From: Amia ocellicauda | Taxonomy: Eukaryota > Chordata > Actinopteri > Amiiformes > Amiidae | Reading direction: 5' to 3' | DNA length: 64,000 bases | NCBI RefSeq assembly: GCF_036373705.1 | Contig: NC_089850.1 | Location: forward strand, 64,151,602 to 64,215,601 | In this document: positions 9,488 through 57,734 of the stretch, piece after piece | Layout of the letters: each line of letters begins with the position of its first letter | How positions within the stretch are numbered: the stretch's first letter is position 1 | Notes under the pieces: model-generated | Seen by the model: the letters and a program-made list of their open reading frames with translations, nothing else | Database searches by the model: none | What the model was told of the DNA's origin: nothing | Program-made: the position numbers and the translations under genes

Positions 9488-9526
9488 CACACACACACAC
9501 ATACATACATACATACATGCACACAT

Positions 9527-9600: not shown

Positions 9601-9604
<4 letters not shown>

Positions 9605-9624
9605 TAGGTGACTGTGCATATATA

Positions 9625-10845
9625 CACTCACCTAAAGGATTATTAGGAACACCTGTTCAATTTCTCATTAATGCAATTATCTAACCAACCAATCACATGG
9701 CAGTTGCTTCAATGCATTTAGGGGTGTGGTCCTGGTCAAGACAATCTCCTGAACTCCAAACTGAATGTCTGAATGGGAAAGAAAGGTGATTTAAGCAATT
9801 TTGAGCGTGGCATGGTTGTTGGTGCCAGACGGGCCGGTCTGAGTATTTCACAATCTGCTCAGTTACTGGGATTTTCACGCACAACCATTTCTAGGGTTTA
9901 CAAAGAATGGTGTGAAAAGGGAAAAACATCCAGTATGCGGCAGTCCTGTGGGCGAAAATGCCTTGTTGATGCTAGAGGTCAGAGGAGAATGGGCCGACTG
10001 ATTCAAGCTGATAGAAGAGCAACTTTGACTGAAATAACCACTCGTTACAACCGAGGTATGCAGCAAAGCATTTGTGAAGCCACAACACGTACAACCTTGA
10101 GGCGGATGGGCTACAACAGCAGAAGACCCCACCGGGTACCACTCATCTCCACTACAAATAGGAAAAAGAGGCTACAATTTGCACAAGCTCACCAAAATTG
10201 GACAGTTGAAGACTGGAAAAATGTTGCCTGGTCTGATGAGTCTCGATTTCTGTTGAGACATTCAGATGGTAGAGTCAGAATTTGGCGTAAACAGAATGAG
10301 AACATGGATCCATCATGCCTTGTTACCACTGTGCAGGCTGGTGGTGGTGGTGTAATGGTGTGGGGGATGTTTTCTTGGCACACTTTAGGCCCCTTAGTGC
10401 CAACTGGGCATCGTTTAAATGCCACGGCCTACCTGAGCTTTGTTTCTGACCATGTCCATCCCTTTATGACCACCATGTACCCATCCTCTGATGGCTACTT
10501 CCAGCAGGATAATGCACCATGTCACAAAGGTCGAATCATTTCAAATTGGTTTCTTGAACATGACAATGAGTTCACTGTACTAAACTGGCCCCCACAGTCA
10601 CCAGATCTCAACCCAATAAAGCATCTTTGGGATGTGGTGGAACGGGAGCTTCGTGCCCTGGATGTGCATCCCACAAATATCCATCAACTGCAAGATGCTA
10701 TCCTATCAATATGGGCCAACATTTCTAAAGAATGCTTTCAGCACCTTGTTGAATCAATGCCACGTAGAATTAAGGCAGTTCTGAAGGCGAAAGGGGGTCA
10801 AACACAGTATTAGTATGGTATTCCTAATAATCCTTTAGGTGAGTG
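9625..10845 (+). mobile_element. Tc1/mariner DD36E (Incomer-like) transposon, copy 1, full length 1221 bp
   Basis: Bounded by TA on both sides (9623-9624 and 10846-10847). The inverted terminal repeats begin CACTCACCTAAAGGATTATT, and the reverse complement is at the right end; the ITRs are about 29 bp with one mismatch. It contains one uninterrupted transposase gene (9773-10813). Length and sequence are nearly identical to copy 2 (13653-14873), which implies recent transposition. It is inserted at the centre of a palindrome. Confidence 0.95.
9773..10813 (+). CDS. Tc1/mariner transposase, DD36E type, copy 1 (open frame, third catalytic residue mutated)
   Basis: 346 codons, ATG to TAG. Residues about 8-120 form the paired-type DNA-binding region, with two helix-turn-helix segments (first: [19 protein letters not shown] at 22-40). 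The catalytic region has D155 in WSDESRF, D246 in QQDNAPCH, and the third position at 283 in DLNPIKHLW. Thirty-six residues separate positions 246 and 283, which defines the DD36E group described as Incomer. Here residue 283 is lysine, where copies 2, 3 and 4 have glutamate (AAG against GAG). The E-to-K change should abolish catalysis because this acidic residue binds the metal ion. The frame is otherwise open. The enzyme normally binds the ITRs and moves the element by cut-and-paste into TA sites. Confidence 0.95.
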   Translation: MGKKGDLSNFERGMVVGARRAGLSISQSAQLLGFSRTTISRVYKEWCEKGKTSSMRQSCGRKCLVDARGQRRMGRLIQADRRATLTEITTRYNRGMQQSICEATTRTTLRRMGYNSRRPHRVPLISTTNRKKRLQFAQAHQNWTVEDWKNVAWSDESRFLLRHSDGRVRIWRKQNENMDPSCLVTTVQAGGGGVMVWGMFSWHTLGPLVPTGHRLNATAYLSFVSDHVHPFMTTMYPSSDGYFQQDNAPCHKGRIISNWFLEHDNEFTVLNWPPQSPDLNPIKHLWDVVERELRALDVHPTNIHQLQDAILSIWANISKECFQHLVESMPRRIKAVLKAKGGQTQY

Positions 10846-13652: not shown

Positions 13653-14870
13653 CACTCACCTAAAGGATTATTAGGAACACCATACTAATACTGTGTTTGA
13701 CCCCCTTTCGCCTTCAGAACTGCCTTAATTCTATGTGGCATTGATTCAACAAGGTGCTGAAAGCATTCTTTAGAAATGTTGGCCCATATTGATAGGATAG
13801 CATCTTGCAGTTGATGGAGATTTGTGGGATGCACATCCAGGGCACGAAGCTCCCGTTCCACCACATCCCAAAGATGCTCTATTGGGTTGAGATCTGGTGA
13901 CTGTGGGGGCCAGTTTAGTACAGTGAACTCATTGTCATGTTCAAGAAACCAATTTGAAATGATTCGACCTTTGTGACATGGTGCATTATCCTGCTGGAAG
14001 TAGCCATCAGAGGATGGGTACATGGTGGTCATAAAGGGATGGACATGGTCAGAAACAATGCTCAGGTAGGCCGTGGCATTTAAACGATGCCCAATTGGCA
14101 CTAAGGGGCCTAAAGTGTGCCAAGAAAACATCCCCCACACCATTACACCACCACCACCAGCCTGCACAGTGGTAACAAGGCATGATGGATCCATGTTCTC
14201 ATTCTGTTTACGCCAAATTCTGACTCTACCATCTGAATGTCTCAACAGAAATCGAGACACATCAGACCAGGCAACATTTTTCCAGTCTTCAACTGTCCAA
14301 TTTTGGTGAGCTTGTGCAAATTGTAGCCTCTTTTTCCTATTTGTAGTGGAGATGAGTGGTACCCGGTGGGGTCTTCTGCTGTTGTAGCCCATCCGCCTCA
14401 AGGTTGTACGTGTTGTGGCTTCACAAATGCTTTGCTGCATACCTCGGTTGTAACGAGTGGTTATTTCAGTCAAAGTTGCTCTTCTATCAGCTTGAATCAG
14501 TCGGCCCATTCTCCTCTGACCTCTAGCATCAACAAGGCATTTTCGCCCACAGGACTGCCGCATACTGGATGTTTTTCCCTTTTCACACCATTCTTTGTAA
14601 ACCCTAGAAATGGTTGTGCGTGAAAATCCCAGTAACTGAGCAGATTGTGAAATACTCAGACCGGCCCGTCTGGCACCAACAACCATGCCACGCTCAAAAT
14701 TGCTTAAATCACCTTTCTTTCCCATTCAGACATTCAGTTTGGAGTTCAGGAGATTGTCTTGACCAGGACCACACCCCTAAATGCATTGAAGCAACTGCCA
14801 CGTGATTGGTTGGTTAGATAATTGCATTAATGAGAAATTGAACAGGTGTTCCTAATAATCCTTTAGGTGA

Positions 14871-14873
<3 letters not shown>
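13653..14873 (-). mobile_element. Tc1/mariner DD36E (Incomer-like) transposon, copy 2, full length 1221 bp
   Basis: Inverted orientation relative to copy 1. Ends CACTCACCTAAAGGATTATT and its complement, flanked by TA within (TA)n on both sides. Length is the same as copy 1 and the sequence differs at only a handful of positions. It carries an uninterrupted transposase (14725-13685) with all three catalytic acids. It sits in the inferred first tfpt intron. Confidence 0.95.
13685..14725 (-). CDS. Tc1/mariner transposase, DD36E type, copy 2 (intact catalytic triad)
   Basis: 346 codons. D155 (WSDVSRF), D246 (QQDNAPCH) and E283 (NPIEHLW) are all present with 36 residues between the last two. It differs from copy 1 at V156 (E in the other copies), I211 for T, I223 for F, E283 for K, L303 for I and H331 for R. 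Position 156, directly after the first catalytic aspartate, is glutamate in all three other copies, so V156 may lower activity. This is the best candidate in the window for a functional or recently functional transposase. Paired-type DNA-binding region at residues 8-120. Confidence 0.95.
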   Translation of the reverse strand: MGKKGDLSNFERGMVVGARRAGLSISQSAQLLGFSRTTISRVYKEWCEKGKTSSMRQSCGRKCLVDARGQRRMGRLIQADRRATLTEITTRYNRGMQQSICEATTRTTLRRMGYNSRRPHRVPLISTTNRKKRLQFAQAHQNWTVEDWKNVAWSDVSRFLLRHSDGRVRIWRKQNENMDPSCLVTTVQAGGGGVMVWGMFSWHTLGPLVPIGHRLNATAYLSIVSDHVHPFMTTMYPSSDGYFQQDNAPCHKGRIISNWFLEHDNEFTVLNWPPQSPDLNPIEHLWDVVERELRALDVHPTNLHQLQDAILSIWANISKECFQHLVESMPHRIKAVLKAKGGQTQY

Positions 14874-27900: not shown

Positions 27901-30900
27901 CTTCCGCACATTGCTTGGATGGACAAAAGTGAAGAGTCCACATAGACTCATAGATCTTTCTCATGCGTTACTTCATCTAGATCTGTACCTCCCATAGTGT
28001 AATTATAGTGGACATTTTTGTTACCTGCATGTATTACCTTGCACTTGTCCACATTGAATTTCATCTGCCAGGTGTCGGCCCACAACTGAATGTTATCTAA
28101 GTCCCTTTGAATAGCCTGTGCTGCCAAGATTGTATCTGCTGAGCCACCTATTTTAGTATCATCTGCAAATGTGACAAGTTTGCTAACTATCCCAGAGTCC
28201 AGATCATTAATATAGATTAGAAACAGCACAGGCCCTAGTACTGATCCCTGTGGAACTCCACTAACAACCTCACTCCAGTTAGAAGTGACTCCTCTAATCA
28301 ACACCCTCCGTTTCCTATACATCAACCAGTTCATAATCCATCTACTTACATTACAATTACAATATTTTACAAGTGATGCAGGTGAGACTGATTGGTCTGT
28401 AATTTCCTGGCTCAGTTTTGTCCCCTTTCTTGAGGATTGCTATGACATTTGCTGTCTTCCAGTCAGTGGGCACATCCCCTGTTCTAAGTGTCATTGTTGT
28501 ATTGTAGTATTGAAAAAAGCTCCTTGCATTAGTTTTAGCTCCAAGAGCTATGTTTCTTTCTATTTCCCTCTTTGCTTTCCTGATCCCTTTCTTAAGATCT
28601 CTTTGCAGCTCAACACATGGCTGTGTTGTTGTGGGTGAAGAGACATGGCTGTGTTGTTGGTGTTGTGGGTGAGGAGACATGGCTGTGTTGGTGGTGGTGT
28701 TGGTGAGGAGACATGGCTGTGTTGTTGTTGGTGAGGACATGGAGGTGTTGGTGGTGTTGGTGAGGAGACATGGCTGTGTTGATGGTGAGGAGACATGGCT
28801 GTATAGGTGGTGTTGGTGAGGAGACATGGCTGTGTTGTTGTTAGTGGTGAAGAGACATGGCTGTGTTGATGGTGTTGTGGGTGAGCAGACATGGCTGTGT
28901 TGGTGGTGTTGGTGGTGTTGAGGTTGAGGAGACATGGCTGTATTGGTGGTGTTGGTGGTGAGGAGACATGGAGGTGTTGGTGGTGTTGTTGGTGAGGAGA
29001 CATGGCTGTGTTGTTGTTGTGAGTGAGGAGACATGGCTGTATAGGTGGTGTTGTTGGTGAGGAGACATGGCTGTGTTGGTGGTGTTGTTTGATGAGGAGA
29101 CATGGCTGTGTTGGTGGTGTTGTTGGTGAGGAGACATGGCTGTGTTGGTGGTGATGGTGAGGAGACATGGCTGTGTTGGTGGTGATGGTGAGGAGACATG
29201 GCTGTGTTGATGGTGAGGAGACATGGCTGTGTTGGTGGTGATGGTGAGGAGACATGGCTGTGTTGGTGGTGTTGATGGTGAGGAGACATGGCTGTGGTGA
29301 TGGTGAGGAGACATGGCTGTGTTGGTGGTGATGGTGAGGAGACATGGCTGTGTTGGTGGTGATGGTGAGGAGACATGGCTGTGTTGGTGGTGATGGTGAG
29401 GAGACATGGCTGTGTTGATGGTGAGGAGACATGGCTGTGTTGGTGGTGATGGTGAGGAGACATGGCTGTGTTGGTGGTGTTGATGGTGAGGAGACATGGC
29501 TGTGTTGGTGGTGCTGTTTGTGGTGTTGGTGAGGAGACATGGCTATGTTGGTGTTGGTGAGGAGACATGGCTGTGTTGGTGGTGTTGTTTGATGAGGAGA
29601 CATGGCTGTATAGGTGGTGTTGTTGGTGAGGAGACATGGCTGTGTTGATGGTGAGGAGACATGGCTGTGTTGGTGGTGATGGTGAGGAGACATGGCTGTG
29701 TTGGTGGTGATGGTGAGGAGACATGGCTGTGTTGGTGGTGTTGTTTGATGAGGAGACATGGCTGTATAGGTGGTGTTGTTGGTGAGGAGACATGGCTGTG
29801 TTGATGGTGAGGAGACATGGCTGTGTTGGTGGTGATGGTGAGGAGACATGGCTGTGTTGGTGGTGCTGTTTGATGAGGAGACATGGCTGTGTTGATGGTG
29901 TTGTGGGTGAGGAGACATGGCTGTGTTGGTGGTGTTGTTGGTGAGGAGACATGGCTGTGTTGGTGGTGCTGTTTGATGAGGAGACATGGCTGTGTTGGTG
30001 GTGTTGATGTTGAGGAGACATGGCTGTATAGGTGGTGTTGTTGGTGAGGAGACATGGCTGTGTTGATGGTGAGGAGACATGGCTGTGTTGGTGGTGATGG
30101 TGAGGAGACATGGCTGTATAGGTGGTGTTGTTGGTGAGGAGACATGGCTGTGTTGATGGTGAGGAGACATGGCTGTATAGGTGGTGTTGTTGGTGAGGAG
30201 ACATGGCTGTGTTGATGGTGAGGAGACATGGCTGTGTTGGTGGTGATGGTGAGGAGACATGGCTGTGTTGATGGTGTTGTGGGTGAGGAGACATGGCTGT
30301 GTTGGTGGTGTTGTTGGTGAGGAGACATGGCTGTGTTGGTGGTGTTGTTGGTGAGGAGACATGGCTGTGTTGTTGTGGGTGAGGAGACATGGCTGTGTTG
30401 GTGGTGTTGTTGGTGAGGAGACATGGCTGTGTTGATGGTGAGGAGATATGGCTGTGATGGTGAGGAGACATGGCTGTGTTGGTGATGTTGATGGTGAGGA
30501 GACACGGCTGTGTTGATGGTGAAGAGACATGGCTGTATAGGTGGTGTTGATGGTGAGGAGACATGGCTGTGTTGATGGTGAGGAGACATGGCTGTGTTGA
30601 TGATGAGGAGACATGGCTGTGTTGGTGGTGATGGTGAGGAGACATGGCTGTGTTGGTGGTGCTGTTTGTGACGCAGCTGTCCTCTGTGAATCTGGGGAGG
30701 AAGGCATCTCTCATTTGTGTGTATCTGGTCTGAGCCGGACCTCCTCTCTCTCTCTCTCTCTCAGGGCTGTGTAGGATCTATGACCCAACTCCTGAGGGAC
30801 TGGTGGACTTCTACAGCTACATCCTGGACCTGCTGTCAGGAACGGTGAGAGGGAAATAGACGGAGTCAGTCAGTCAGTGTTAATGTGCTGTAGTGTCCAG

Positions 30901-34662: not shown

Positions 34663-37600
34663 GTGTGTGTCTGTACTGTACTGTGTGTGTGTGTGTCTGT
34701 ACTGTACTGTGTGTGTGTGTCTGTACTGTACTGTGTGTGTGTGTGTGTGTGTGTGTGTCTCTACTCTACTGTGTGTCTGTACTGTACTGTGTGTGTGTCT
34801 GTACTGTACTGTGTGTGTGTCTGTACTGTGTGTGTGTCTGTGTGTGTGTGTCTGTACTGTACTGTACTGTGTGTGTGTGTGTCTGTACTCTGTGTGTGTG
34901 TCTGTACTGTGTGTGTGTGTCTGTGTGTTTGTACTGTGTGTGTATGTCTGTACTGTATGTGTGTGTGTGTCTGTACTGTGTGTGTCTGTACTGTACTGTG
35001 TGTGTGTTTCTGTACTGTGTGTGTGTGTGTGTGTGTCTGTACTCTGTGTGCGTGTGTGTGTGTGTCTGTACTGTGTGTGTGTGTGTGTGTGTGTCTGTAC
35101 TGTGTGTGTGTCTGTATTGTGTGGGATAGATGGGACCTGTACAAACCAGACAGTCTACATCTGAACAGAAGGGGGTGATGGGGATGAATACAAGTTGGAA
35201 AGATACACACAGTTTAGGAGAGACAGGCAAAATCAAAGAGGGGGTGGGGTAGCATTATATGTGAAAAATGACATTGAGGCAGAAGAACTCAAATTAGATC
35301 CCAGTAACGGAACATAATCTTTGTGGGTCAAACTTTTGAACAAGAGATGTGGAGGATTAGTGGTAGGAGTGTGTTACAGGCCACCAAACTCAGATATTCA
35401 GAAAGATGCTGCATTGTACAGTGTAATCAGGACTGCATGTAGCAAGGATGTGGCTGTTATAATGGGGGATTTCAATTTCCCAAACATAGACTGGGAAAGC
35501 CCGGTTGGGACTACAGAGGCAGAAATAGAAATGGTTGAGATGGTAAATGACAGCTTTCTAACTCAATTTGTCAGGGAACCAACCAGGGAGAGCGCAGGCG
35601 TGGATTTAATCTTTTCAAATGACCAAGATAGAGTCAGGGGGACAGTAGTTAGAGTACCAATGGCAAATTGTGATCACAACATGGTTAGCTTTGAGGCATT
35701 CTTTCAAAAAACAAGGTCCAAGTCTAAAACAATGGTCTACAATTTCAGAAAAGCAAACCTTGAAGGTATGAGGTGGCACTTAGAAGAGGTAGACTGGAGC
35801 ACACTGGATACAGATTCAGTTGAAAATGGATGGGTATATTTTAAGAATATACTACTTGAGGCTCAGGAGCAATTTGTACCAAAACTTAGCAAATTGAGGA
35901 ACAACAAACATTGGCCAAAATGGTTTAACAGAGGTATGCAAAAAAATATCAAGAGGAAGAAAATGTTGTATAGCGCATACAAAAGGGACGGAGACAAAAC
36001 AAAATACATAGAATACACTCGCCTAAAGGATTATTAGGAACACCTGTTCAATTTCTCATTAATGCAATTATCTAACCAACCAATCACATGGCAGTTGCTT
36101 CAATGCATTTAGGGGTGTGGTCCTGGTCAAGACAATCTCCTGAACTCCAAACTGAATGTCTGAATGGGAAAGAAAGGTGATTTAAGCAATTTTGAGCGTG
36201 GCATGGTTGTTGGTGCCAGACGGGCCGGTCTGAGTATTTCACAATCTGCTCAGTTACTGGGATTTTCACGCACAACCATTTCTAGGGTTTACAAAGAATA
36301 GTGTGAAAAGGGAAAAACATCCAGTATGCGGCAGTCCTGTGGGCGAAAATGCCTTGTTGATGCTAGAGGTCAGAGGAGAATGGGCCGACTGATTCAAGCT
36401 GATAGAAGAGCAACTTTGACTGAAATAAGCACTCGTTACAACCGAGGTATGCAGCAAAGCATTTGTGAAGCCACAACACGTACAACCTTGAGGCGGATGG
36501 GCTACAACAGCAGAAGACCCCACCGGGTACCACTCATCTCCACTACAAATAGGAAAAAGAGGCTACAATTTGCACAAGCTCACCAAAATTGGATAGTTGA
36601 AGACTGGAAAAATGTTGCCTGGTCTGATGAGTCTCGATTTCTGTTGAGACATTCAGATGGTAGTCAGAATTTGGCGTAAACAGAATGAGAACATGGATCC
36701 ATCATGCCTTGTTACCACTGTGCAGGCTGGTGGTGGTGGTGTAATGGTGTGGGGGATGTGTTCTTGGCACACTTTAGGCCCCTTAGTGCCAATTGGGCAT
36801 CGTTTAAATGCCACAGCCTACCTGAGCATTGTTTCTGACCATGTCCATCCCTTTATGACCACCATGTACCCATCCTCTGATGGCTACTTCCAGCAGGATA
36901 ATGCACCATGTCACAAAGGTCGAATCATTTCAAATTGGTTTCTTGAACATGACAATGAGTTCACTGTACTGCCCCCACAGTCACCAGATCTCAACCCAAT
37001 AGAGCATCTTTGGGATGTGGTGGAACGGGAGCTTCGTGCCCTGGATGTGCATCCCACAAATCTCCATCAACTGCAAGATGCTATCCTATCAATATGGGCC
37101 AACATTTCTAAAGAATGCTTTCAGCACCTTGTTGAATCAATGCCACGTAGAATTAAGGCAGTTCTGAAGGCGAAAGGGGGTCAAACACAGTATTAGTATG
37201 GTGTTCCTAATAATCCTTTAGGTGAGTGTATGTTGAGCTGCAAAGAGATCTTAAGAAAGGGATCAGGAAAGCAAAGAGGGAAATAGAAAGAAACATAGCT
37301 CTGGAGCTAAAACCAATGCAAAGAGCTTTTTTTCAATATTACAACAGCAAGAGGACAATAAGGGAGGAAAACGAACAAGATGTGGCAAATGTTCTAAATG
37401 AGTATTTCACAGAGGTTTTCAAAAAAGAAAAGACAGATAACATGCCACAGGTTAACAATCAGTCCAGTCAAACCCTAAGAGAGATCAGGATAAATGAGGA
37501 GGAGGTGCTAAAGGGACTAGCAGAATTAAAAACAAACAAATCACCTGGGCCAGATGGGATGTTTCCAACAGTACTTAAAGAAATGAGGGAAATTATGTAT

Positions 37601-39109
37601 AGGCCGCTAACTCAAATATTCAACATTACACTTAGAACAGGGGATGTGCCAACTGACTGGAAGACAGCAAATGTCATACCAATCCACAAGAAAGGGGACA
37701 AAACTGAGCCAGGAAATTACAGACCAATCAGTCTCACCTGCATCACTTGTAAAATATTGGAAAAAATGATTAGACAGAAAATAGAGGAGCATCTGAAAAC
37801 CATATTCTTGGAGATAGTCAACATGGGTTTAGACAAGGCAGATCATGTCTTACTAATTTATTAGAATTTTTTGAACATGCAACTGCAGCTGTAGATCACA
37901 TGAAAGCATATGATATGATATACTTAGATTTTCAGAAAGCTTTTGATAAGGTTCCACACCAAAGACTGATGCTCAAATTGGAAGCTGTAGGCAGGGTAAT
38001 GTAAGTACTAGGGCCTTTGCTTTTTCTAATCTATATTAATGATCTGGACTCTGGGATAGTTAGCGAACTTGTCAAATTTGCCAATGATACTAAAATAGGT
38101 GGCTCAGCAGATACAATCTCGGCAGCACAGGCTATTCAGAGGGACTTAGATAATATTCAGTTGTGGGCCGACACCTGGCAGATGAAATTCAATGTGGACA
38201 AGTGCAAGGTAATACATGCAGGTAACAAAAATATCCACTATAATTACACTATGGGAGGAATCGAACTAGATGAAGTAACGCATGAGAAAGACCTAGGAGT
38301 CTATGTGGACTCCTCACTTTCTCCATCCAAACAATGTGGAGAAGCAATAAAAAAGGCAAACACAATGCTAGGGTATATTGTCAAAAGTGTAGAATTGAGA
38401 ACAAGGGCAGTGATGTTCAGACTGTACAATGCACTAGTTAGAGCTCATCTGGATACTGTGGACAGTTCTGGGCTCCACACTTCAAGAAAGATATCGCTGC
38501 TCTAGAGGCAGTTCAGAGGAGAGCAACCAGACTTATTCCAGGTCTGAAGGGAATGTCCTACTTGGAGAGACTGAGGAACTGAACCTTTTCACCCTGGAAC
38601 AGAGGATACTACGTGAGGACTTGATCCAAGTCTTCAAAATCATGAAAGGCATCGACCACATCAAACCAGAGGAGCTTTTCCAGATCAGCAGGGACACACA
38701 CACCCGGGACACAAATGGAAATTGGGCTTCAAGGCATTCAAGACAGAAAACAGGAGACACTTCTTCACACAGAGAGGCGTGACAATCTGAACAAACTCCC
38801 CAGCAATGTGGCTGAAGAGACAATTTGGGAACATTCAGAAACGGACTGGATAGGATCCTTGATCACTTAGTTATTAATGGACACCAAACGAGCACGATGG
38901 GTCAAATGGCCTCCTTTCGATTGGACACTGTCTTATGTTCTCGTGTGTGTCTGTACTGTGCTGTGTGTGGGTCTGTACTGTGTATCTGTACTGTACTGTG
39001 TGTCTGCTGTACTGGACAGTTTATCTGTCACTGTAACTGGAGAAGAGCTACAGCAATGCATTATGGGGGTTTTGTCATTTTATATGCTCCATACATAAGA
39101 CATGTTAAG

Positions 39110-39154
<45 letters not shown>

Positions 39155-40007
39155 AGTTTTCAGTATCAGGACAATTTCTTTCTGAATCTGCTGGTGGAGT
39201 ACCTCCCCTCCATTGTTATAACGGCCGCCAACTTTGTGGTCCCCACCCTCTGTGACATCATTGCTCGGCTGGAGGGACACGGCCCCACCACCCAGATCAT
39301 TCTGTCACTCTTGCGGTGAGAGAGAGAGAGTTGTACAGTCCACTGTCAGGATGGTGGGGATAGTCTCTGAATTGATGAGTTATTTAATAAGCAGCCAGTC
39401 AGTGTGTCGGTGTGTCAGTCAGTGTGTCAGTGAGTCAGTCAGTGTGTCAGTATGAACTCTCTCGCTGTGCTTAATTGTCTCGCCCATCGTCGGCACTGTG
39501 GCCTCAGTTGACATCTTAACAGATGTTGGTGAACATGGAAGGGATGTGTTTGTGTAAATACACAACAGGGAAACCACAGGACCACAGAAAAAGAGTGATG
39601 GATATGGGAGGAGCAGGAGAGACAGATAGAGAGACGGATCATACCAATAAGACATGAATTAATAGAGTAGTTAAAGAGGCTATAGAATGAAATGTGTATA
39701 ACAATGTTACACCTCTCATTACATACTCATATCATTCTCTCTCTCCTCTCTCTCTCTCCCTGTGCAGCTCAGTGTTCCTCAGGCTCGCCAGTCTTGGGGT
39801 GCTGCTGGCGTCTCTGTGGAGTCAGATCACCTGTAAGGGAGGAACTGACACTTCAAACTGCAGAGCTTGTGGATACAACTACAAACAGTACCCTGTACAT
39901 AACAGCGACGCACTGCCTGACACACTGACACACTGACTAACTGATACACCAACTGACTGACTGACACACCCACTGACCGACCGACACTGGCTGACTGGAC
40001 ACTTCAG

Positions 40008-40042
<35 letters not shown>

Positions 40043-42085
40043 GCTGGGAGACCACGGTGGGGCAGGAGATGTATAAACTGGTGATCTTTGACTTCTTGAT
40101 CGTGGTGGCCGTGTTGCTGCTGGTGGAGTTCCCCCGATGGTAACCCCCTCACTGTGTTCTAATTCACAGTGTGTGTCTGTCAGTATGAGTCTGTGTGTGC
40201 TCATCTCAACCCACCCCCCTCTCTCTGAAGGATGGTCGTGGATTACTGCCCCTGCAGTCTGGCCCGCTGGCTGGGCCGTCAGGAGTTCTCTGTGCCGCAG
40301 TGCGTCCTGGGATTGGTGTACGGGCAGATGGTGGTGTGGACCGGGGCGTTCTACTGCCCCCTGCTGCCCCTCATCAACACGGTCAAATTCATCATCTTCT
40401 TCTACTGCAGGAGGGTCAGTCCTGTGTGTGTGTGTCTGAGTGTTTGTGTGTCTGAGTGTGTCTCTGTGTGTGTCAGTGTATTTCAGTGTGTGTCAGTGTA
40501 TTTCAGTGTGTGTCTCTCTGTGTGTCAGTGTATTTCAGTGTGTCTCTCTGTGTGTGTCAGTGTATTTCGTGTCTCTCTGTGTGTGTCAATGTATTTCAGT
40601 GTGTGTCACTCAGCGTGTGTGTGTGTGTGTCAGTGTATTTCAGTGTGTGTCTCTCAGTGTATCCGTGTCTCTGAGTGTGTTTCTCTTGTGTTGTCTCTGA
40701 GTGTTTCTGTGTGTGTGTCTCTCTCTCTCTCTCCAGAGAACTAGTAAAGTGGAAGTTGTTGCTCTGTAGTAGTGTAGTACACTGAACACAAATATATACA
40801 CAACATGCAACAATTAGAGGTGGCTTAATGGTAGAAAAATTTACATTCAGTTCTCTGGCAGCAGCTCTGGTGGACAGTCCTGCAGTCAGCAGCCAATCGC
40901 ACACTCCCGCAAAACCTGAGCCATCCGTGTGTTGTGTGACACAACTGCACATTGTAGAGTGGCGTTTCATTGTCCCAGCACCAGGGACTCCTGTGTAACG
41001 ATCACACAGTTTAATCAGTCACCCGCCAGGCAGATCATCTCGGCAAAAAGAAAAGCTCACTAATAGGGATGTAACAAACGTGTGCACAACATTTGAGAGA
41101 AATAAGGTTTTTTTGCGAATGGAACATTTCTGGGATCAACACTTTACATGTTGCGTTTATATTTGTGTTCATTCACTCTGTCTCTCTCCCTCTGATATTA
41201 ATAACAGTTGTTCTCATTTCCTCCGTGTCAGCTGTTTACACACACACCAGACGGGTCTGTTTGTCTATCTGCCATCGACGTGTGTGTCTGTGTGTAACTA
41301 GTGTATCTCTCTCTTCTCCTCTGTCATCCTCTTGATCTTCTCCACTCCTCCCTTCACCCCTCCACACAGAGTGCCCCCCCGAGCAGTGTCTAGTCAGTCA
41401 GTATCTCTACCCCTCCCCCCTCTCTTTCTGTCCCCCACTCTCTCGGGGCTTCATGGCTCTCATTGATAGTATTGACCCTCTCTCTCTCTCTCAGGTCTCT
41501 CTCTCTCTCTGTCGTCCGGCTCAGCGCACGTTTCGCTCCACCTCGTCATCCTTCTTCTTCCTCCTGGTGCTGCTGCTGGGACTGTGTGTGTCCTGTGTAC
41601 CGCTGGGCTGCAGCCTGGGACTGTGAGTCTGCTCAGCAAAAGCTACAGAGAAGAGACAGCAAGGCATTATGGGGGCTGTTGAAATACAGGTTTCACTGAA
41701 GCACGCAAGCAACTACAGCTGCCAGGGTCCTTTGGGCCAGAGCTCCACAGTACGGCATCATGGGGGCTTGTAGTCTTCCAGTTTCCAGTCTGCAAACAAT
41801 TCTGCAACACAACCACCACAACAACAACAACACCACCACCATCCTGTCAGTCCGTCAGTGTTAATGTGCTGTATCGTCCAGTCGTCTTGAATGTGTATAT
41901 ACATTGTACTAACCCTCTCTCTCCTCTCAGGTTGCAGCCCTCTCAATCCTGTGGTCCGTTCCGCTCTCTGCGCCGGATATGGGATGCTCTGCCTGACTCC
42001 TTCTCCTCCCTCCATCCCACCCTCCGCTCCTTCCTCCTATTCCTCGGAACCCAGGCCTTCGCTGTGCCTCTGTTCCTGCTGAGCA

Positions 42086-42138
<53 letters not shown>

Positions 42139-45100
42139 AATGTGGAAAAAATACTTTGAAAACCTTTATAAAGATGATAAACAAAGTTGATCTGACACAG
42201 GAACAAATTGAAACTAGGGAAAAACTAAAATTACTTGAACAATCACATTAAAAACAATCAAAACACACTTGACCCTCCAATCACCCTACAGGAATGATCT
42301 AGAAAGCTCCAGGCACTTAAACCCGGAAGAGCTGCGGTCCTGACGCATCAGCACTGAGATGCTCAAACACAGCAGCCCACAATTGCAGGAGGCTGTGCTT
42401 ACATTGTTCAACATGGTCCTCAGTACTAGTTACTTCCCTGACATCTGGAACCAGGGGCTGATCACCCCAATCTATAAGAGTGGAGACAAATTCAACCCTA
42501 ACAACTATCAGAGCATCTGTGTGAGCAGCAACCTGGGGAAGGTGTTTTGTAGCATCTTTAACGCCTGGATACTGGCCTTCCTCACCACACAGTGTCAGAG
42601 TAAGAGTCAGATTGGCTTCCTACCAAAACACCGCACTACAGATCATATTTACACCCTACACACCCTCAAGGACAAACACGTCCACAAAGAAAATAATTTA
42701 AGAAAGGCATTCGATTCCATTTGACACGAGGGACTTTATTACAGTCTGAGCCCAACACTGTTCAACATCTACATCAACAAGTTGACCACAGTGTTGGAGC
42801 AGTCTGATGCCCCTGGCCTCACCCTAAATGACACAGAAGTCAAATTCCTGCTCTACGCAGATGACCCAGTCCTGCTGTCGCCCACAGAGTAGGGGCTTCA
42901 GCAAAACCTGGCACTGCTAGAGCAGCACTGTCAGACCTGGGCCCTGGCAGTAAACATGAAGAAGACAATGATCATGATCTTCCAAAAAAAGGCCAGACCT
43001 CAGGGAAACAAATACACATCAATCTAGGCAGCACTGTCCTAGAACACACCTCAGACTACACTTACCTGGGCCTGACTTAGTGCGTCAGGGGGCTTTAATC
43101 TGGCAGTGAAGGCACTCAAAGACAAAGCAAGAAGAGCTTTCTACGCAATCAGAAGAAGATTCTATAACATTAATATTCCAGTCAAAATCTGCCTCAAACT
43201 AACTGACAGTGTGATCCAGCCCATTGCGCTGTACGGTAGTGAAGTATGGGGTCCACTCAGTCAACAGGACTACACTAGGTGGGACAAACACCCAATAGAG
43301 ACCCTGCATGCTGAACTCTATAAACACATACTGCAGGTGCACAGGAACACACCAAACCATGCCTGCTGGGCAGAATTACCCAACTCTCATCAACATCAAG
43401 AAAAGAGCCCCTCCTGACTGGATCTCACTGTGGTCACTGAGAGACAGGAGAGGTGGACACAGAGAGGACCGGCGCTGTGGTCACTGAGAGACAGGAGAGG
43501 TGGACACAGAGAGGAGTGGCGCTGTGGTCACTGAGAGACAGGAGAGGTGGACACAGAGAGGAGTGGCGCTGTGGTCACTGAGAGACAGGAGAGGTGGACA
43601 CAGAGAGGAGTGGCACTGTGGTCACTGAGAGACAGGAGAGGTGGACACAGAGGAGCGGCGCTGTGGTCACTGAGAGACAGGAGAGGTGGACACAGAGAGG
43701 ACAGTGTAGTCACTGAGAGACAGGAGAGGTGGACACAGAGAGGAGTGGCGCTGTGGTCACTGAGAGACAGGAGAGGTGGACACAGAGAGGAGCGGCACTG
43801 TGGTCACTGAGAGACAGGAGAGGTGGACACAGAGGAGCGGCACTGTGGTCACTGAGAGACAGGAGAGGTGGACACAGACGCACTTTCTCGTGCACTGCAA
43901 TAAATACACACCAATAAGGGAGACTTTTACACAACAAATCACCAATTCTGTCCCCTTTACCCCTAACAGACAGAGAGATAAGCTGGGTCCAGTCCTGGGA
44001 GACTGCAAAATATGTAGCAACATGTCACAGGGGCCACAGTGATCGCTCCGCTCAGCGCTGCGCCATATGGGTGCATGTGTGCATATAGGTATATTATCTG
44101 ATGTATTTTCTTTTATTTGTATACGTATTAGGGCTGTCAGTCGATTAAAATATTTGATTGGTTAATCAATGGGCATTAGCTGATTACTCGGGCACTTGTT
44201 AAAATAGGTGTACTGGTCTTTAAGTGGCTGTGATACACAGTAATACTTTAATAAACACCAGGCATTGATATAACAGTAATGTATATTTAAACACGTTGTA
44301 GATGTTGAGCGAGTGGGGGGGTTCTTCTCACAAATGATTCTGTGAACTCCTCACTGCCCTTGTGAGAAAAGCATCGCTTGCAAATTAAACAGAAAACCTT
44401 TACTTTGTCTTCAGTGTTTGTGTACGAATCCAGTTTGAACCCACAGCTCGACTGTAGTTTTTAGCGTCTGTAACCGTGCAGTTTGTGCCGATCCCGCACA
44501 ACAGCCTGCTTTATAACTGAACCGTATAATCGCCAGTCATTGTAATAAAAACAAAATCTGCTCGATTAAATAGAGAAAAAGTGTATCGTTGATTAATCAG
44601 TCCAATTAATAAATTAATCGAAGCAGCCCTAATATTTATATAATATACACTCACCTAAAAGATTATTAGGAACACCTGTTCAATTTCTCACTAATGCAAT
44701 TATCTAACCAACCAATCACATGGCAGTTGCTTCAATGCATTTAGGGGTGTGGTCCTGGTCAAGACAATCTCCTGAACTCCAAACTGAATGTCTGAATGGG
44801 AAAGAAAGGTGATTTAAGCAATTTTGAGCGTGGCATGGTTGTTGGTGCCAGACGGGCCGGTCTGAGTATTTCACAATCTGCTCAGTTACTGGGATTTTCA
44901 CGCACAACCATTTCTAGGGTTTACAAAGAATAGTGTGAAAAGGGAAAAACATCCAGTATGCGGCAGTCCTGTGGGCGAAAATGCCTTGTTGATGCTAGAG
45001 GTCAGAGGAGAATGGGCCGACTGATTCAAGCTGATAGAAGAGCAACTTTGACTGAAATAAGCACTCGTTACAACCGAGGTATGCAGCAAAGCATTTGTGA

Positions 45101-46363
45101 AGCCACAACACGTACAACCTTGAGGCGGATGGGCTACAACAGCAGAAGACCCCACCGGGTACCACTCATCTCCACTACAAATAGGAAAAAGAGGCTACAA
45201 TTTGCACAAGCTCACCAAAATTGGATAGTTGAAGACTGGAAAAATGTTGCCTGGTCTGATGAGTCTCGATTTCTGTTGAGACATTCAGATGGTAGTCAGA
45301 ATTTGGCGTAAACAGAATGAGAACATGGATCCATCATGCCTTGTTACCACTGTGCAGGCTGGTGGTGGTGGTGTAATGGTGTGGGGGATGTGTTCTTGGC
45401 ACACTTTAGGCCCCTTAGTGCCAATTGGGCATCGTTTAAATGCCACAGCCTACCTGAGCATTGTTTCTGACCATGTCCATCCCTTTATGACCACCATGTA
45501 CCCATCCTCTGATGGCTACTTCCAGCAGGATAATGCACCATGTCACAAAGGTCGAATCATTTCAAATTGGTTTCTTGAACATGACAATGAGTTCACTGTA
45601 CTAAACTGGCCCCCACAGTCACCAGATCTCAACCCAATAGAGCATCTTTGGGATGTGGTGGAACGGGAGCTTCGTGCCCTGGATGTGCATCCCACAAATC
45701 TCCATCAACTGCAAGATGCTATCCTATCAATATGGGCCAACATTTCTAAAGAATGCTTTCAGCACCTTGTTGAATCAATGCCACGTAGAATTAAGGCAGT
45801 TCTGAAGGCGAAAGGGGGTCAAACACAGTATTAGTATGGTGTTCCTAATAATCCTTTAGGTGAGTGTATATATATATATATATATAATATATATATATAG
45901 TGTAAAACTGCTTTGGCAACACAATATGTATGTCATTCCAATAAAGCAAACTTGAATCGAATTGAACTGAAAGAGAGGGAGAGATGATATGTGTTGCAGT
46001 TTCATTTGGTCAGTATTCTCTGACCTTCCCTCTCTCCCTCCCTCTCCCTCAGTGTGGCGCTGTGCTCTACCGTGGCCGTGGCGTTGGCCTACAGTCGCAG
46101 CGTCTCTCTCCTGCGCACACAGCTCAAACTGGTGAGTCCCTCCCTCCCTCTTTCCATCCCCCTCCTCCCTCTCTCTCGCTCTCTCTCTCTCTCTCTCACT
46201 CACACCATCTCTGTCTGTCCGTCTGCCTCAGGAGGGGCGGGACAAGCTGTTCTTGGTTAAACAGATAGCGGAACTCTCCTCAGCCAATCAGAAGAGCGCG
46301 GCACCCCGGGGTCCTTCAGGCATCGCTCTGGACAACTGGGACAGCAGTGGACCCCTGGAATAG
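21919..46363 (+). CDS. tmc4: Transmembrane channel-like protein 4
   Basis: Sixteen coding exons: 21919-21982, 23851-24025, 24189-24340, 24840-24998, 30765-30844, 32520-32668, 33078-33225, 34055-34213, 39155-39315, 39768-39894, 40042-40139, 40231-40414, 41495-41622, 41931-42086, 46053-46131, 46232-46363 (TAG). All GT-AG and in phase: 2151 nt, 716 aa (human TMC4 712). The N-terminus is polar and basic. Hydrophobic segments appear in exons 4, 6, 8, 9-15, including [20 protein letters not shown] and [20 protein letters not shown]. The TMC-family signature [13 protein letters not shown] starts exon 11 (residue 459), right after [26 protein letters not shown] and [14 protein letters not shown] near the end match TMC4 specifically, as do the tfpt and leng1 neighbours. 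Mammalian TMC4 is reported as an anion channel linked to salt taste. The first exon is the least certain: its phase (one extra base) fits exon 2, giving ...ETKVPQWDS. Introns carry many insertions, yet every exon is intact. Confidence 0.93.
21998..22050 (+). other. Duplicated tmc4 exon 2 acceptor (decoy splice site)
   Basis: CATAGTACAGTTTAACT, (TC)n, CAG, then TACCCCAGTGGGACT (22034-22048) copies the real acceptor and first 15 bases of exon 2 (about 23812-23865: TATAGTACAGTATAACT, (TC)n, CAG, TACCCCAGTGGGACT). Splicing here would add about 18 residues and then stop at TGA (22085-22087). Confidence 0.75.
22295..22345. repeat. Fragment of a common fish interspersed repeat
   Basis: CATTTTCTTAGCAGAAGCAC, TGACCAAGAGCGACTTACAG resembles the TTAGCAGACGC...GGGCGACTTACA motif dispersed in many fish genomes. 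Too short to assign to a family. Confidence 0.4.
22700..23540 (+). other. CpG-containing segment and exon-like open frame inside tmc4 intron 1 (unexplained)
   Basis: 22700-22870 is GC-rich with four TCACTGG heptamers (22736-22763) and a donor-like CCCGGGGTGAGTCG (about 22829-22842). At 23281 a good acceptor (CCTGTTCCACAG) opens a 230-base frame, read GAT GTG CTT AAA... if joined to a phase-1 exon, ending at AAT|GTAATA (donor after 23510). It encodes about 77 residues including [17 protein letters not shown] and [16 protein letters not shown] do not recognise it. It exits in phase 0 and would frameshift tmc4 exon 2, so it is not a simple cassette exon. It may be a separate transcript, a relic exon or chance. 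Confidence 0.3.
24362..24775. repeat. TG/TCTC tandem array in tmc4 intron 3
   Basis: TCTCTATGTGTGTGTCTGTG-type units filling most of the intron between exons 3 and 4. Confidence 0.9.
25013..25540. repeat. ACAGTACAGACACACACA tandem array in tmc4 intron 4
   Basis: Begins about 14 bases after the exon 4 donor. Same vocabulary as 20.44-21.63 kb. Confidence 0.9.
25690..25830 (-). mobile_element. LINE 3' tail fragment in tmc4 intron 4
   Basis: TCAATTCAAATTCAAATGCA, TTTATAGGCATGACAAGATT and GTTGCCAAAGCATTTACAG match the LINE tail family at 12.98 and 46.45 kb. Minus-oriented. Confidence 0.65.
25835..27080 (+). other. GC-rich promoter-like segment in tmc4 intron 4, unclassified (possible retroelement 5' region)
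   Basis: Unlike its surroundings this 1.25 kb is GC-rich and non-repetitive. It has a TATA-like TATATAA (about 25978-25984) followed directly by GTGACGTC, and then a pyrimidine-rich stretch resembling an initiator region. Downstream, a frame open from 26418 to the flanking minisatellite encodes a proline- and arginine-rich product with no motif I recognise; another frame starts at 26657. It could be the leader and start of an LTR or DIRS-type element whose pol is missing, or an internal promoter. No terminal repeats or target duplication were identified. Confidence 0.3.
27090..27307. repeat. Minisatellite (GTGAGGAGACATGGCTGTGT), left part
   Basis: Same unit as 28613-30670. The array is split by the CR1 insertion at 27308-28612. 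Confidence 0.9.
27308..28612 (-). mobile_element. CR1-type LINE, 5'-truncated and internally deleted
   Basis: Minus-strand ORF2 pieces: [20 protein letters not shown]; then, after a deletion, [16 protein letters not shown] and [16 protein letters not shown] (RT blocks); then, after another gap, [20 protein letters not shown] and [11 protein letters not shown] (RT active-site block, aspartates retained); then the C-terminal [19 protein letters not shown] and [19 protein letters not shown]. The 3' tail CTTATGTTCTTATGT lies at the left edge. It is inserted in the GTGAGGAGACATGG minisatellite, with ACAT on both sides as a probable target duplication. It is dead because of the deletions. Confidence 0.93.
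28613..30670. repeat. Minisatellite (GTGAGGAGACATGGCTGTGT + TGGTGGTGNTG), main part
   Basis: About 2 kb of units of roughly 24-36 bp, all multiples of three with variable GGTGGTGTTG spacers, in tmc4 intron 4. Because the length variation is in triplets, minus-strand frames of 715-785 codons (His/Ser/Pro/Thr-rich) stay open. They have no other support as genes. Confidence 0.95.
30865..32490. repeat. Minisatellite, 27-35-bp CAGTCAGTGTTAATGTGCTG unit, tmc4 intron 5
   Basis: About 55 units with one to four CAGT tetramers plus GTTAATGTGCTGTAGTGTC, filling the intron from 20 bases after the exon 5 donor to about 30 bases before the exon 6 acceptor. Same unit as 12.09-12.96 kb. Confidence 0.96.
32700..33060. 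other. tmc4 intron 6 sequence with degenerate AATCAATAC repeats
   Basis: Many near-copies of GAATCAATAC/GTAATCAATA between 32740 and 32915, then unique sequence and a (TC)n tract before exon 7. Confidence 0.6.
33245..33345. repeat. Two units of a 47-bp minisatellite, inverted relative to 43.4 kb
   Basis: CCTCTCTGTGTCCACCTCTC and CTGTCTCTCAGTGACCACA are the reverse complement of the 43430-43880 unit, including the variant ending AGCGCCGGTCC. Confidence 0.8.
33345..34020. other. tmc4 intron 7, no gene; possible old DNA-transposon remnant
   Basis: Contains TTTAACACTAAAATCGCCGA and ACTAAAAGCACCAAAACTGG, AAATGGACC, reminiscent of fish piggyBac-type repeats. Otherwise nothing recognised. Confidence 0.3.
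34214..35120. repeat. TGTG/CTGTACTG tandem array, tmc4 intron 8
   Basis: (TG)n with CTGTACTG interruptions, beginning at the exon 8 donor. It contains an internal duplication of about 250 bases (around 34.38-34.58 and 34.61-34.79 kb). Long frames on both strands are artefacts. Confidence 0.95.
35321..36013 (+). pseudogene. CR1 ORF2 endonuclease-domain fragment
   Basis: About 230 codons of the APE-like endonuclease and linker of CR1 ORF2, open up to the DD36E insertion. Reading across the empty site (...KYIE, Y, VELQRD...) restores the frame into the RT part, showing that the insertion broke a continuous ORF. Confidence 0.85.
36016..37228 (+). mobile_element. Tc1/mariner DD36E transposon, copy 3, 1213 bp, defective
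   Basis: Flanked by TA (36014-36015 and 37229-37230). ITR CACTCGCCTAAAGGATTATT (one mismatch). It is inserted in CR1 ORF2. Its length equals 1221 minus a 2-base and a 6-base deletion. Confidence 0.95.
36164..37196 (+). pseudogene. DD36E transposase pseudogene, copy 3
   Basis: Codon 46 (Trp in copies 1 and 2) is TAG (36299-36301). A 2-base deletion at about 36663 shifts the frame near residue 167. A 6-base in-frame deletion at about 36970 removes Asn-Trp before PPQSPDLNP, shortening the D-E spacing to 34. Amino-acid changes T90S, T144I and F200C are shared with copy 4. Confidence 0.95.
37226..38505 (+). pseudogene. CR1 ORF2 reverse-transcriptase and C-terminal fragment
   Basis: Frame 37226-37864 holds the RT N-terminal blocks. 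A stop and frameshift follow around 37860-38017. Frame 38017-38505 holds the palm motif (FANDT) and thumb region ([20 protein letters not shown]), then a stop at 38503. Not functional. Confidence 0.85.
39108..39154. repeat. (TC)n acceptor tract before tmc4 exon 9
   Basis: A (TC)20 run ending in CAG. The microsatellite serves as the polypyrimidine tract. Confidence 0.85.
40415..40735. repeat. GTGTGTCAGTGTATTTCAGT tandem array, tmc4 intron 12
   Basis: GTGTCTCTCTGTGTGTCAGT and GTATTTCAGTGTGTGT units starting at the exon 12 donor. Confidence 0.85.
40780..41178 (-). mobile_element. Tc1-like MITE with transposase N-terminal remnant, tmc4 intron 12
   Basis: Ends CACTGAACACAAATATATAC and the inverse of ACATGTTGCGTTTATATTTG with GTGTTCATT, the terminal type of a very common fish Tc1 family. 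A minus-strand remnant reads [30 protein letters not shown], the first helix-turn-helix of a Tc1 transposase with stops nearby. A TA dinucleotide precedes the left end (40778-40779). Confidence 0.8.
41749..41780 (-). promoter_or_regulatory. SBS-like motif ACTACAAGCCCCCATGATGC
   Basis: Minus-strand ACTACAAGCCCCCATGATGC in tmc4 intron 13 resembles a ZNF143 site. A partial second copy (GGCATTATGGGGGCTG) lies at 41663, and related sequences at 39055 and 61972. It may be a repeat-borne site rather than a promoter. Confidence 0.35.
42090..42135. repeat. (GA)n microsatellite after tmc4 exon 14
   Basis: (GA)22 run starting 3 bases after the donor. Confidence 0.9.
42140..44120 (+). mobile_element. 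Second LINE family, ORF2 fragment (RT to C-terminus), degenerate
   Basis: Plus-strand pieces: [86 protein letters not shown] and [12 protein letters not shown] (RT palm YADD); then [20 protein letters not shown] and [21 protein letters not shown] 47-bp minisatellite (43430-43880) has replaced part of the C-terminal region, after which [16 protein letters not shown] resumes. Its 3' tail appears at 45898-45970 beyond two later insertions. Frameshifts and stops make it dead. Clade not assigned. Confidence 0.88.
43430..43880. repeat. 47-bp minisatellite inside the LINE fragment
   Basis: About ten units of GTGGTCACTGAGAGACAGGA, GAGGTGGACACAGAGAGGAG, TGGCGCT. Flanked by LINE coding sequence on both sides, so it expanded after insertion. 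An inverted two-unit copy lies at 33245-33345. Confidence 0.93.
44129..44631. mobile_element. hAT-like MITE
   Basis: Ends TAGGGCTGTCAGTCGATTAA and the inverse (TTAATCGAAGCAGCCCTA). Flanks ATACGTAT (44121-44128) and ATATTTAT (44632-44639) match at 6 of 8 positions, consistent with an 8-bp hAT target duplication. Non-coding interior. Confidence 0.75.
44648..45866 (+). mobile_element. Tc1/mariner DD36E transposon, copy 4, 1219 bp, defective
   Basis: Flanked by TA (44646-44647 and 45867-45868). ITR CACTCACCTAAAAGATTATT (one mismatch). Length is 1221 minus the same 2-base deletion as copy 3. Inserted a few bases from the hAT-like MITE, within the LINE in tmc4 intron 14. Confidence 0.95.
44796..45834 (+). 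pseudogene. DD36E transposase pseudogene, copy 4
   Basis: TAG at codon 46 (44931-44933) and the 2-base deletion near 45295 are both identical to copy 3, as are T90S, T144I and F200C. It lacks the 6-base deletion of copy 3. D155, D246 and E283 codons are still present but no single frame links them. Confidence 0.95.
45898..45970 (+). mobile_element. LINE 3' tail, separated from its body by hAT and DD36E insertions
   Basis: TTTGGCAACACAATATGTAT, GTCATTCCAATAAAGCAAAC, TTGAATCGAATTGAACTGA is the plus-oriented form of the LINE tail seen inverted at 46443. It probably belongs to the LINE body at 42140-44120. Confidence 0.65.
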
Positions 46364-55260: not shown

Positions 55261-55426
55261 GTACAGTAGTTGTAGTAGAGCAGTAGCCTTAGTGTAGTAT
55301 TTAATCTGACAATGAGCTCCTCAGTATAGTAGTAACAGTATAGTATTATGTCACATCAAGGGGACCCTATAGTATCAATTAATGATTAATTAGGGGTGTG
55401 GATAAGGGTGTCTCCCAATAAATATT

Positions 55427-55462
<36 letters not shown>

Positions 55463-55519
55463 GTTGCTGCAGTTCTCCTCCCGGCCTGTGCACAGTGAGG
55501 GCTGCTGTAACCATCCACC

Positions 55520-57734
55520 ATGAACATTCTGCCCAAGAAGAGCTGGCATGTGCGCAACAAGGACAACGTGGCGCGAGTGCGCAAAGACGAGCTCGACGCT
55601 GCCCTGCAGGACAGAGAGACGCAGCGCCGGGTGCAGCGAGCACAGCAGGAGGTCAGTGAGTGGCTGTGTGTGTGTGAGAGTGACAGTGTGTGTATGTGAG
55701 AGTGACAGTGTGAGTGAATAACAGTGTGAGTGACGGTGTGTGAGTGACAGTGTGTGTGTGAGAGTGAGTGACTGTGTGTGTGTGAGTGTGAGAGTGAGTG
55801 ACAGTGTGTGTGTGAGTGAGTGACAGTGTGAGTGAATGACAGTGTGAGTGACATTGTGTGTGTGTGAGAGTGAGTGAATGACATTGAGTGATGGTGTGTG
55901 AGTGACCGTGTGTGTATGTGAGTGACAGTGTGTGTATGTGAGAGTGAGTGAACGTGTGTGTGTGAGAGTGACAGTGTGAGTGAATAACAGTGTGAGTGAC
56001 GGTGTGTGAGTGACAGTGTGTGTATGTGAGAGTGAGTGAACGTGTGTGTGTGAGAGTGACAGTGTGAGTGAATAACAGTGTGAGTGACGGTGTGTGAGTG
56101 ACAGTGTGTGTATGTGAGAGTGAGTGACTGTGTGTGTGTGAGTGTGAGAGTGAGTGACTGTGTGTGTGTGTGTGTGTGTGAGAGTGAGTGACAGTGTGTG
56201 TGTGAGAGTGAGTGACTGTGTGTGTGTGAGTGTGAGAGTGAGTGACAGTGTGTGTGAGTGAGTGACAGTGTGAGTGAATGACAGTGTGAGTGACATTGTG
56301 TGTGTGTGAGAGTGAGTGAATGACATTGAGTGATGGTGTGTGAGTGACCGTGTGTGTATGTGAGTGACAGTGTGTGTGTGTGTGAGGGACAGTGTGAGTG
56401 AATGACAGTGTGAGTGACGGTGTGTGAGTGTGAGAGTGAGTGACAGTGTGTGTGTATGTGAGTGACAGTGTGTGTGAGGGACAGTGTGAGTGACAGTGTG
56501 TGTGTGTATGTGAGTGACGGTGTGTGAGTGACAGTGTGTGTGTGTGTGTGTGTGTGTGTGCGGGACAGTGTGTGTGTGTGTGTGTGTGTGTGAGAGTGAG
56601 TGACAGTGTGTGTGTGAGAGTGAGTGACAGTGTGTGTGAGTGAGTGACGTGTGTGTGTGTGTGTGAGTGACTGTGTGTGTATGTGTGAGTGACTGTGTGT
56701 GTGTGTGTGAGGGACAGTGTGAGTGACAGTGTGAGTGTGAGAGTGAGTGACAGTGTGAGTGTGAGAGTGAGTGACAGTGTGTGTGACAGAGTGTGTGTGA
56801 CAGTGTGTGTGTGAGAGTGACAGTGTGAGTGACAGTGTGTGTGTGACAGTGAGGGACAGTGTGAGTGTGTGTGTGTGAGTGAGTGACTGTGTGTGAGGGA
56901 CAGTGTGAGTGACAGTGTGTGTGTGACAGTGTGAGTGTGAGAGTGAGTGACAGTGTGAGTGACTGTGTGTATGTGTGAGTGACTGTGTGTGAGTGAGTGA
57001 CAGTGTGAGTGACAGTGTGTGTGAGTGAGTGACAGTGTGTGTGTGAGAGTGAGTGACTGTGTGTGTGTGAGTGTGAGAGTGAGTGACAGTGTGTGTGTGA
57101 GTGAGTGACAGTGTGAGTGAATGACAGTGTGAGTGACATTGTGTGTGTGTGAGAGTGAGTGAATGACATTGAGTGATGGTGTGTGAGTGACCGTGTGTGT
57201 ATGTGAGTGACAGTGTGTGTATGTGAGAGTGAGTGAACGTGTGTGTGTGAGAGTGACAGTGTGAGTGAATAACAGTGTGAGTGACGGTGTGTGAGTGACA
57301 GTGTGTGTGTGAGAGTGAGTGACTGTGTGTGTGTGAGTGTGAGAGTGAGTGACTGTGTGTGTGTGAGTGTGAGAGTGAGTGACAGTGTGTGTGTGAGAGT
57401 GAGTGACTGTGTGTGTGTGAGTGTGAGAGTGAGTGACAGTGTGTGTGAGTGAGTGACAGTGTGAGTGAATGACAGTGTGAGTGACATTGTGTGTGTGTGA
57501 GAGTGAGTGAATGACATTGAGTGATGGTGTGTGAGTGACCGTGTGTGTATGTGAGTGACAGTGTGTGTGAATGACAGTGTGAGTGACGGTGTGTGAGTGT
57601 GAGAGTGAGTGACAGTGTGTGTGTATGTGAGTGACAGTGTGTGTGTGAGGGACAGTGTGAGTGACAGTGTGTGTGTGTATGTGAGTGACGGTGTGTGAGT
57701 GACAGTGTGTGTGTGTGTGTGTGTGTGTGCGGGA

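Follow-up and report, generated by a model that had tools for sequence, protein, structure and literature searches.

Dead copies of a DD36E transposon in Amia ocellicauda share lesions at unrelated sites and were probably moved by full-length relatives

Two copies of a DD36E element, 8.6 kb apart in the genome of Amia ocellicauda, have inactivating lesions in common although they sit at unrelated sites, which is a pattern by which a trans-mobilised non-autonomous element can be recognised. The best reading, to which we give a probability of about two in three, is that these copies (copies 3 and 4 of the window, the window being the whole 64-kb stretch of DNA analysed) were mobilised in trans by full-length relatives, with local hopping. 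The first-pass annotation of the window had proposed that an already dead element was copied by transposase supplied from elsewhere. This proposal holds as the best explanation; it is partly supported, and gene conversion may instead have produced the shared changes in a local trio of copies to which both belong.

Results

The element family

The window contains four copies of one 1.2-kb element: two that carry the lesions, both on the plus strand, and two with a full reading frame. Copy 1 (9625..10845, plus strand) and copy 2 (13653..14873, minus strand) are each 1221 bp long, hold a full 346-aa frame and are free of the 2-bp deletion described below. Their frame matches the Pfam families HTH_Tnp_Tc3_2, HTH_23 and DDE_3, each above cut-off, and alignment with the Sleeping Beauty catalytic domain (5cr4) relates the catalytic half of their transposase to Sleeping Beauty. 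Motif positions and this alignment place the triad of the copy 2 frame at D155, D246 and E283; we take the catalytic residues within 5cr4, and the role of positions 155, 156 and 283, to be those described for Sleeping Beauty and its relatives. With 36 residues separating D246 from E283, the frame has the two Asp and the distant Glu of a DD36E transposase, copy 1 having Lys at position 283. The length and frame of copies 1 and 2 agree with those of DD36E/Incomer elements (about 1.2 kb, about 346 aa), the terminal inverted matches of 28-33 bp, which include flanking bases in part, with the terminal repeats of that group (22-32 bp), and the TA found on both sides of 27 out of 32 element copies with its TA target site. 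On these features, the four copies look like members of a single DD36E (Incomer-like) Tc1/mariner family, which is young and very abundant. Searching IMG/VR at the protein level returned zero matches.

Though the frames of copies 1 and 2 are full, E283K in the former and E156V in the latter (which also has R331H) sit at or beside catalytic residues, so that counting full frames gives too high an estimate of working copies. Copy 1 also has the arms of a larger, asymmetric inverted repeat (8588-11251) to either side of it, and lies inside a short palindrome, with 24-bp arms that adjoin the element on both sides.

Lesions shared by copies 3 and 4

Copy 3 (36016..37228, plus strand, 1213 bp) and copy 4 (44648..45866, plus strand, 1219 bp) are both dead, with limits confirmed as exact. 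Alignment of the copies confirmed four changes that the first-pass annotation had listed for both and that are absent from copies 1 and 2: a TAG in place of W46 (G285A), a loss of 2 bp at 647-648 that turns AGAG into AG and shifts the frame at codon 167, T144I (C579T) and F200C (T747G). A shared Thr to Ser change, which had been numbered T90S, is likewise real and absent from copies 1 and 2, at residue 89 (T89S, C414G), and the silent G802A, missing from the earlier list, is common to copies 3 and 4 as well. Between the two copies there are 3 substitutions (A6G in the copy 3 terminal repeat; G13A and T44C in copy 4), and 6 bp, positions 958-963, are gone from copy 3 only, just as had been noticed at first. 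Given the stop at codon 46 and the frameshift at codon 167, neither copy has a functional transposase of its own: the reading frame stops after 45 residues, and the 2-bp deletion shifts the frame ahead of the second and third catalytic residues.

Genome-wide counts of the deletion, the stop and the linked changes

Pattern counts in the 988-Mb genome are exact matches, and copies changed inside a pattern are missed. Counted in this way, the un-deleted junction has 13,033 matches and the 2-bp-deleted junction 85, on 23 contigs, the latter making up <1% of the junctions counted; the reversed junction patterns have 0 matches in the same 988 Mb. Control 2-bp tandem losses at two other sites gave 0 and 3 matches (the second control pattern, at 34 vs 23 letters, is longer and somewhat less sensitive) as against 85, and the deletion is therefore mostly inherited, with perhaps a few independent origins besides the main one. 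We typed 65 deletion copies, that is 64 of the 85 pattern matches plus L010, where a private change breaks the pattern; 21 of the 85 lie outside the typed set. These copies stand on average 6.8 differences from the majority sequence and un-deleted copies 6.7, which suggests that deleted and un-deleted copies may have spread over the same period and means that the case for a single deletion origin rests on rarity and not on linked markers. One typed copy, L042 (C2:34937961 region), has 35 differences from the majority, vs 1-12 in the other 64. A candidate lineage marker, 717C, present in 9 of 64 deletion copies and in 0 of 22 un-deleted ones, was dropped, as it sits in a GGT repeat.

The codon-46 stop has 44 exact matches genome-wide, where 36-48 are expected from the G-to-A rate of the family, and taken alone it is an ordinary recurrent mutation. 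Only two of these 44 fall in copies with the deletion pattern, namely copies 3 and 4. Among the 63 typed deletion copies besides these two, truncation removes the codon-46 position in two and the F200 position in one; W46* is found in 0 of the 61 that keep its position, and T144I and F200C in a single copy, L002 (63 and 62 copies keeping the respective positions). T89S is present in L002 and four other typed deletion copies, and 802A in L002, two other typed deletion copies and 2 of 22 un-deleted copies. Contigs numbered C12-C17 hold 0 of the 85 deletion matches and 0 of the 44 stop matches, which may be only a matter of numbering.

T144I combined with F200C gives exactly three exact matches, all within 82 kb (C1:64188192-64269758). 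They are copies 3 and 4 and L002 (C1:64269112-64270331), which retains W46. Since this combination occurs three times in 988 Mb, chance cannot give the set of changes common to copies 3 and 4. The members of the trio have unrelated flanks and one is in opposite orientation; assuming an even spread, their closeness would arise by chance with a probability of about 3e-8, and their movement looks local. The window itself sits 164 kb from the end of contig C1.

The lesions, first presented as one shared set, thus differ in rarity and in age: the deletion is inherited (85 matches), old and widespread, while the stop is recurrent in the family and is the youngest lesion in the lineage of copies 3 and 4. 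Because L002 has T144I and F200C but keeps W46, and because the deletion is widespread while the stop accompanies it only in copies 3 and 4, the simplest order of events would be the deletion, then T89S, T144I, F200C and 802A, then the stop, and finally the private changes.

Other dead copies at unrelated sites

The first-pass annotation had raised the possibility of a sub-family present at many loci, and one was found, made up of the 85 deletion junctions and including pairs with several lesions whose sites are unrelated. L003 and L006, on two contigs, have the same sequence across 1219 bp; L009 and L012 have two further changes in common, one of them nonsense; L047 (C2) and L062 (C6) have three lesions in common (the 2-bp deletion, a 1-bp deletion at 393 and W259*) together with seven other changes. 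Comparison of flanks over 0.9 kb gave no match within any of these three pairs. Distant, multiply-dead pairs of this kind, with flanks that do not match, argue that broken copies moved, and it is very likely from these comparisons that dead copies move across the genome as a whole. L008 and L028, which were set aside, have neighbouring repeats in common to the left and right of the element, though not at each of its ends.

Movement or gene conversion

Movement by full-length relatives would have proceeded as follows. In one family member, two bases would have been lost from the part of the transposase gene that encodes the catalytic half. As the deleted element kept its ends, the transposase of full-length relatives could excise it and re-insert it at TA sites, and the dead sub-family would have expanded in this manner to 86 copies or more. 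A dead copy close to the end of contig C1 would then have gained T89S, T144I, F200C and the silent change and hopped locally, and one of its descendants would have gained the codon-46 stop and hopped again, giving rise to copies 3 and 4; the third local copy would descend from the stage before the stop, retaining W46, and copy 3 would have lost its 6 bp afterwards. We infer three parts of this history: that the trio arose by transposition rather than gene conversion, that every one of the hops was local, and which copies were the source of the enzyme.

Ectopic gene conversion is unlikely, though it is a serious contender for the trio. The three elements would have inserted independently, after which a stretch of some 0.4-0.5 kb or more, containing the deletion and the shared changes, would have been copied among neighbours. 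Within the trio, all of the shared substitutions (5/5) lie inside 285-802 and all of the private events (7/7) outside it, an arrangement that random order would produce in about 1% of cases (p about 0.01) and that a converted tract would leave behind. Copies within 82 kb of each other are close enough for such an exchange, and at a family density of 13 elements per Mb, independent insertions in that stretch are ordinary. Neither a donor site nor a footprint of excision was identified, which counts against movement. Conversion is however not easily reconciled with two other results. Outside the tract, the three copies carry 6 private substitutions, vs about 12 expected from the family average (calculated by hand, from 6.7 per copy), and in L047 and L062, on two contigs, the common changes extend from 393 to 1109 and enclose a private one, an arrangement better explained by a moved dead copy than by a tract. 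Flank homology or conversion tracts had been named at the outset as observations that would speak against the proposal; the former is absent, the latter finds some support in the order of changes in the trio.

Supply of transposase

The un-deleted sample consisted of copies 1 and 2 and of 20 out of 13,033, these 20 being taken from C1:1.1-6.2 Mb. In 8 of the 20, the 346-aa frame and the motifs WSDE, QQDN and NPIEH are intact; L101 is full length but has STQEH where NPIEH is expected. On this basis, it is plausible that full-length relatives supply transposase to the dead copies. A source resembling copy 2, suggested earlier, is unlikely as such. In copy 2, E156V immediately follows the first catalytic Asp, and copy 1 has lost the catalytic Glu (E283K); both were rejected as sources for these reasons.

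Alternatively, the element might still have been active when it moved, either through frameshift recoding or through a functional N-terminal product, which we regard as highly improbable. A 171-aa frame covering the DNA-binding half is indeed open in 46 of the 57 typed deletion copies that have the exact start motif, and nonsense changes in deletion copies are fewer than expected in codons 1-166 (3 vs 10.7) and as expected in the remainder (9 vs 9). Missense changes, however, are not depleted in codons 1-166 (104 vs 109 under neutrality, silent changes 31 vs 34; beyond codon 166, 132 vs 115 and 39 vs 37), frameshift deletions are present in this first half, the 2-bp deletion throws two of the three catalytic residues out of frame and the frame of copies 3 and 4 is cut off at 45 residues. 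The same counts were considered for a selected N-terminal repressor protein: nonsense changes look depleted, but missense changes are neutral and frameshifts occur, which leaves a weak lead only.

Insertion sites and flanks

Copy 3 is flanked by a TA at 36014..36015 with its partner at 37229-37230, and interrupts a non-LTR retrotransposon. To its left lies the endonuclease part of ORF2 (35321..36015, plus strand), with a Pfam endonuclease match above cut-off. Comparison of the flanks and Pfam show the same retrotransposon continuing on its right (37229..38960, plus strand), where a reverse-transcriptase match falls below cut-off. The earlier placement of copy 3 in CR1 ORF2 is thus borne out as regards a non-LTR ORF2, the retrotransposon being presumably CR1. 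Part of the 35321..36015 sequence recurs at 63458-64000 (minus strand). Restored to its unfilled form with a single TA, the host sequence at this site is matched exactly at 1,005 places in the genome, which shows that copy 3 was inserted precisely. A TA duplication had been claimed for each copy and stands for copy 3; for copy 4 (left TA at 44646..44647) it is compatible rather than proven, because the right flank is a (TA)n run. Beside copy 4 is an element with TAGGGCTG..CAGCCCTA ends (44129..44631), presumably a hAT-type MITE, judging by its ends. Exons of a TMC-type membrane protein are found in 39156-46330 (Pfam TMC, E 3.2e-37, two pieces within 40041-40416), and the layout suggests that copies 3 and 4 lie within introns of one host gene.

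Elsewhere in the window, a satellite array (28357-30714, minus strand), open in several frames, abuts retrotransposon sequence, and this junction is within two bases of the point at which copy 3 entered the retrotransposon copy that hosts it. At 55379-57517 and 16200-19840, the window holds long CA/TG-rich and 29-bp-step tandem arrays.

Segmental duplication of one insertion together with its flanks is a process that the genome does display for copies with the codon-46 stop: L103-L105 (C26:7.93-8.07 Mb) and L106-L107 (C7:96-108 kb) are segmental duplications carrying such an element, and their 40-base flanks are identical in the C26 trio and nearly identical in the C7 pair. Another pair, L108 and L109 (C1:40.07 Mb), shares a 33-bp deletion and four changes in addition to the codon-46 stop; here the stop codons are 2.4 kb apart in opposite orientation, and the flanks differ over the 40 bases compared. 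Inspection of the flanks can hence separate duplication from movement. Applied to copies 3 and 4, low-complexity-filtered comparison of 2.5 kb on each side gave zero matches, in line with the earlier remark that their flanks do not match, and same-side flanks of copies 3, 4 and L002 showed no match over 0.9 kb. Together with the 1,005 unfilled counterparts of the site that copy 3 interrupts, this makes duplication extremely improbable for copies 3 and 4.

Dead copies are clustered at short range. Deletion copies form 4 pairs within 100 kb, vs 0.7 expected, three of them being the local trio and one on C28; stop copies form 5 such pairs, vs 0.2 expected, and apart from three that belong to the C26 and C7 duplications, these are copies 3/4 and the C1:40.07 Mb pair. 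The expected numbers presume an even spread.

Finally, the probability that copies 3 and 4 acquired the 2-bp loss and the codon-46 stop separately is practically nil: the frequency of the stop alone is what recurrent mutation would give, and T89S and 802A are present in a few further copies, but there are six simultaneous shared changes, comparable 2-bp losses are nearly absent at the control sites, and the restriction of T144I with F200C to three neighbours refutes it for the whole set.

Discussion

The spread of non-autonomous copies on the transposase of their relatives, and local hopping, are already established and amount to a textbook process. In Drosophila, the non-autonomous mariner element peach spreads on the transposase of its autonomous relative Mos1 (PMC12393704, citing Robillard et al., 2016, as far as the accessible part of that source goes). 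The dependence on a helper would be the same here, with the difference that it concerns a frameshift and a stop in a natural genome and is read from sequence. The same partial source describes internally deleted P elements of Drosophila, non-autonomous copies of which multiply alongside autonomous ones; P elements lose internal parts, whereas only 2 bp were lost here. Sleeping Beauty hops locally, re-inserting near its donor, in frogs about 80% of the time within 3 Mb (PMC3271037, in the portion available), and the trio would be a case of similar hopping near the donor, deduced in this instance from shared marks in a natural genome.

The closest counterpart of the element itself is DD36E/Incomer, which, in the accessible part of its description (PMC6875036), resembles it in its 1.2-kb length, its 346-aa D-D36-E transposase, its repeats of about 28-33 bp and its TA target. 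That account gives 5,418 Incomer copies in Esox lucius, to be set beside 13,033 junctions here, the two numbers being counted differently and not strictly comparable. Unlike what we find here, a marked dead sub-family is not described in the part of it available. Nor is this dead sub-family named in the literature on trans-mobilisation and defective Tc1/mariner lineages, hyperparasitism, DD36E elements and local hopping, as represented mostly by titles and the openings of abstracts. Copies 3 and 4 look like a new instance of an established process, and their family, too, appears to be one already known.

If the trio was produced by gene conversion after all, then lesions common to unrelated sites, often read as evidence of movement in trans, can be an unreliable guide in young families as dense as this one. 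If copies 3 and 4 were moved by relatives, as we think probable, they would provide a clean natural example of dead, near-full-length Tc1/mariner copies mobilised in this way. Rare marks of the kind described here tag individual lineages among about 13,000 near-identical copies, and could thus offer a way to measure local hopping, trans movement and gene conversion in an animal germline without experiment.
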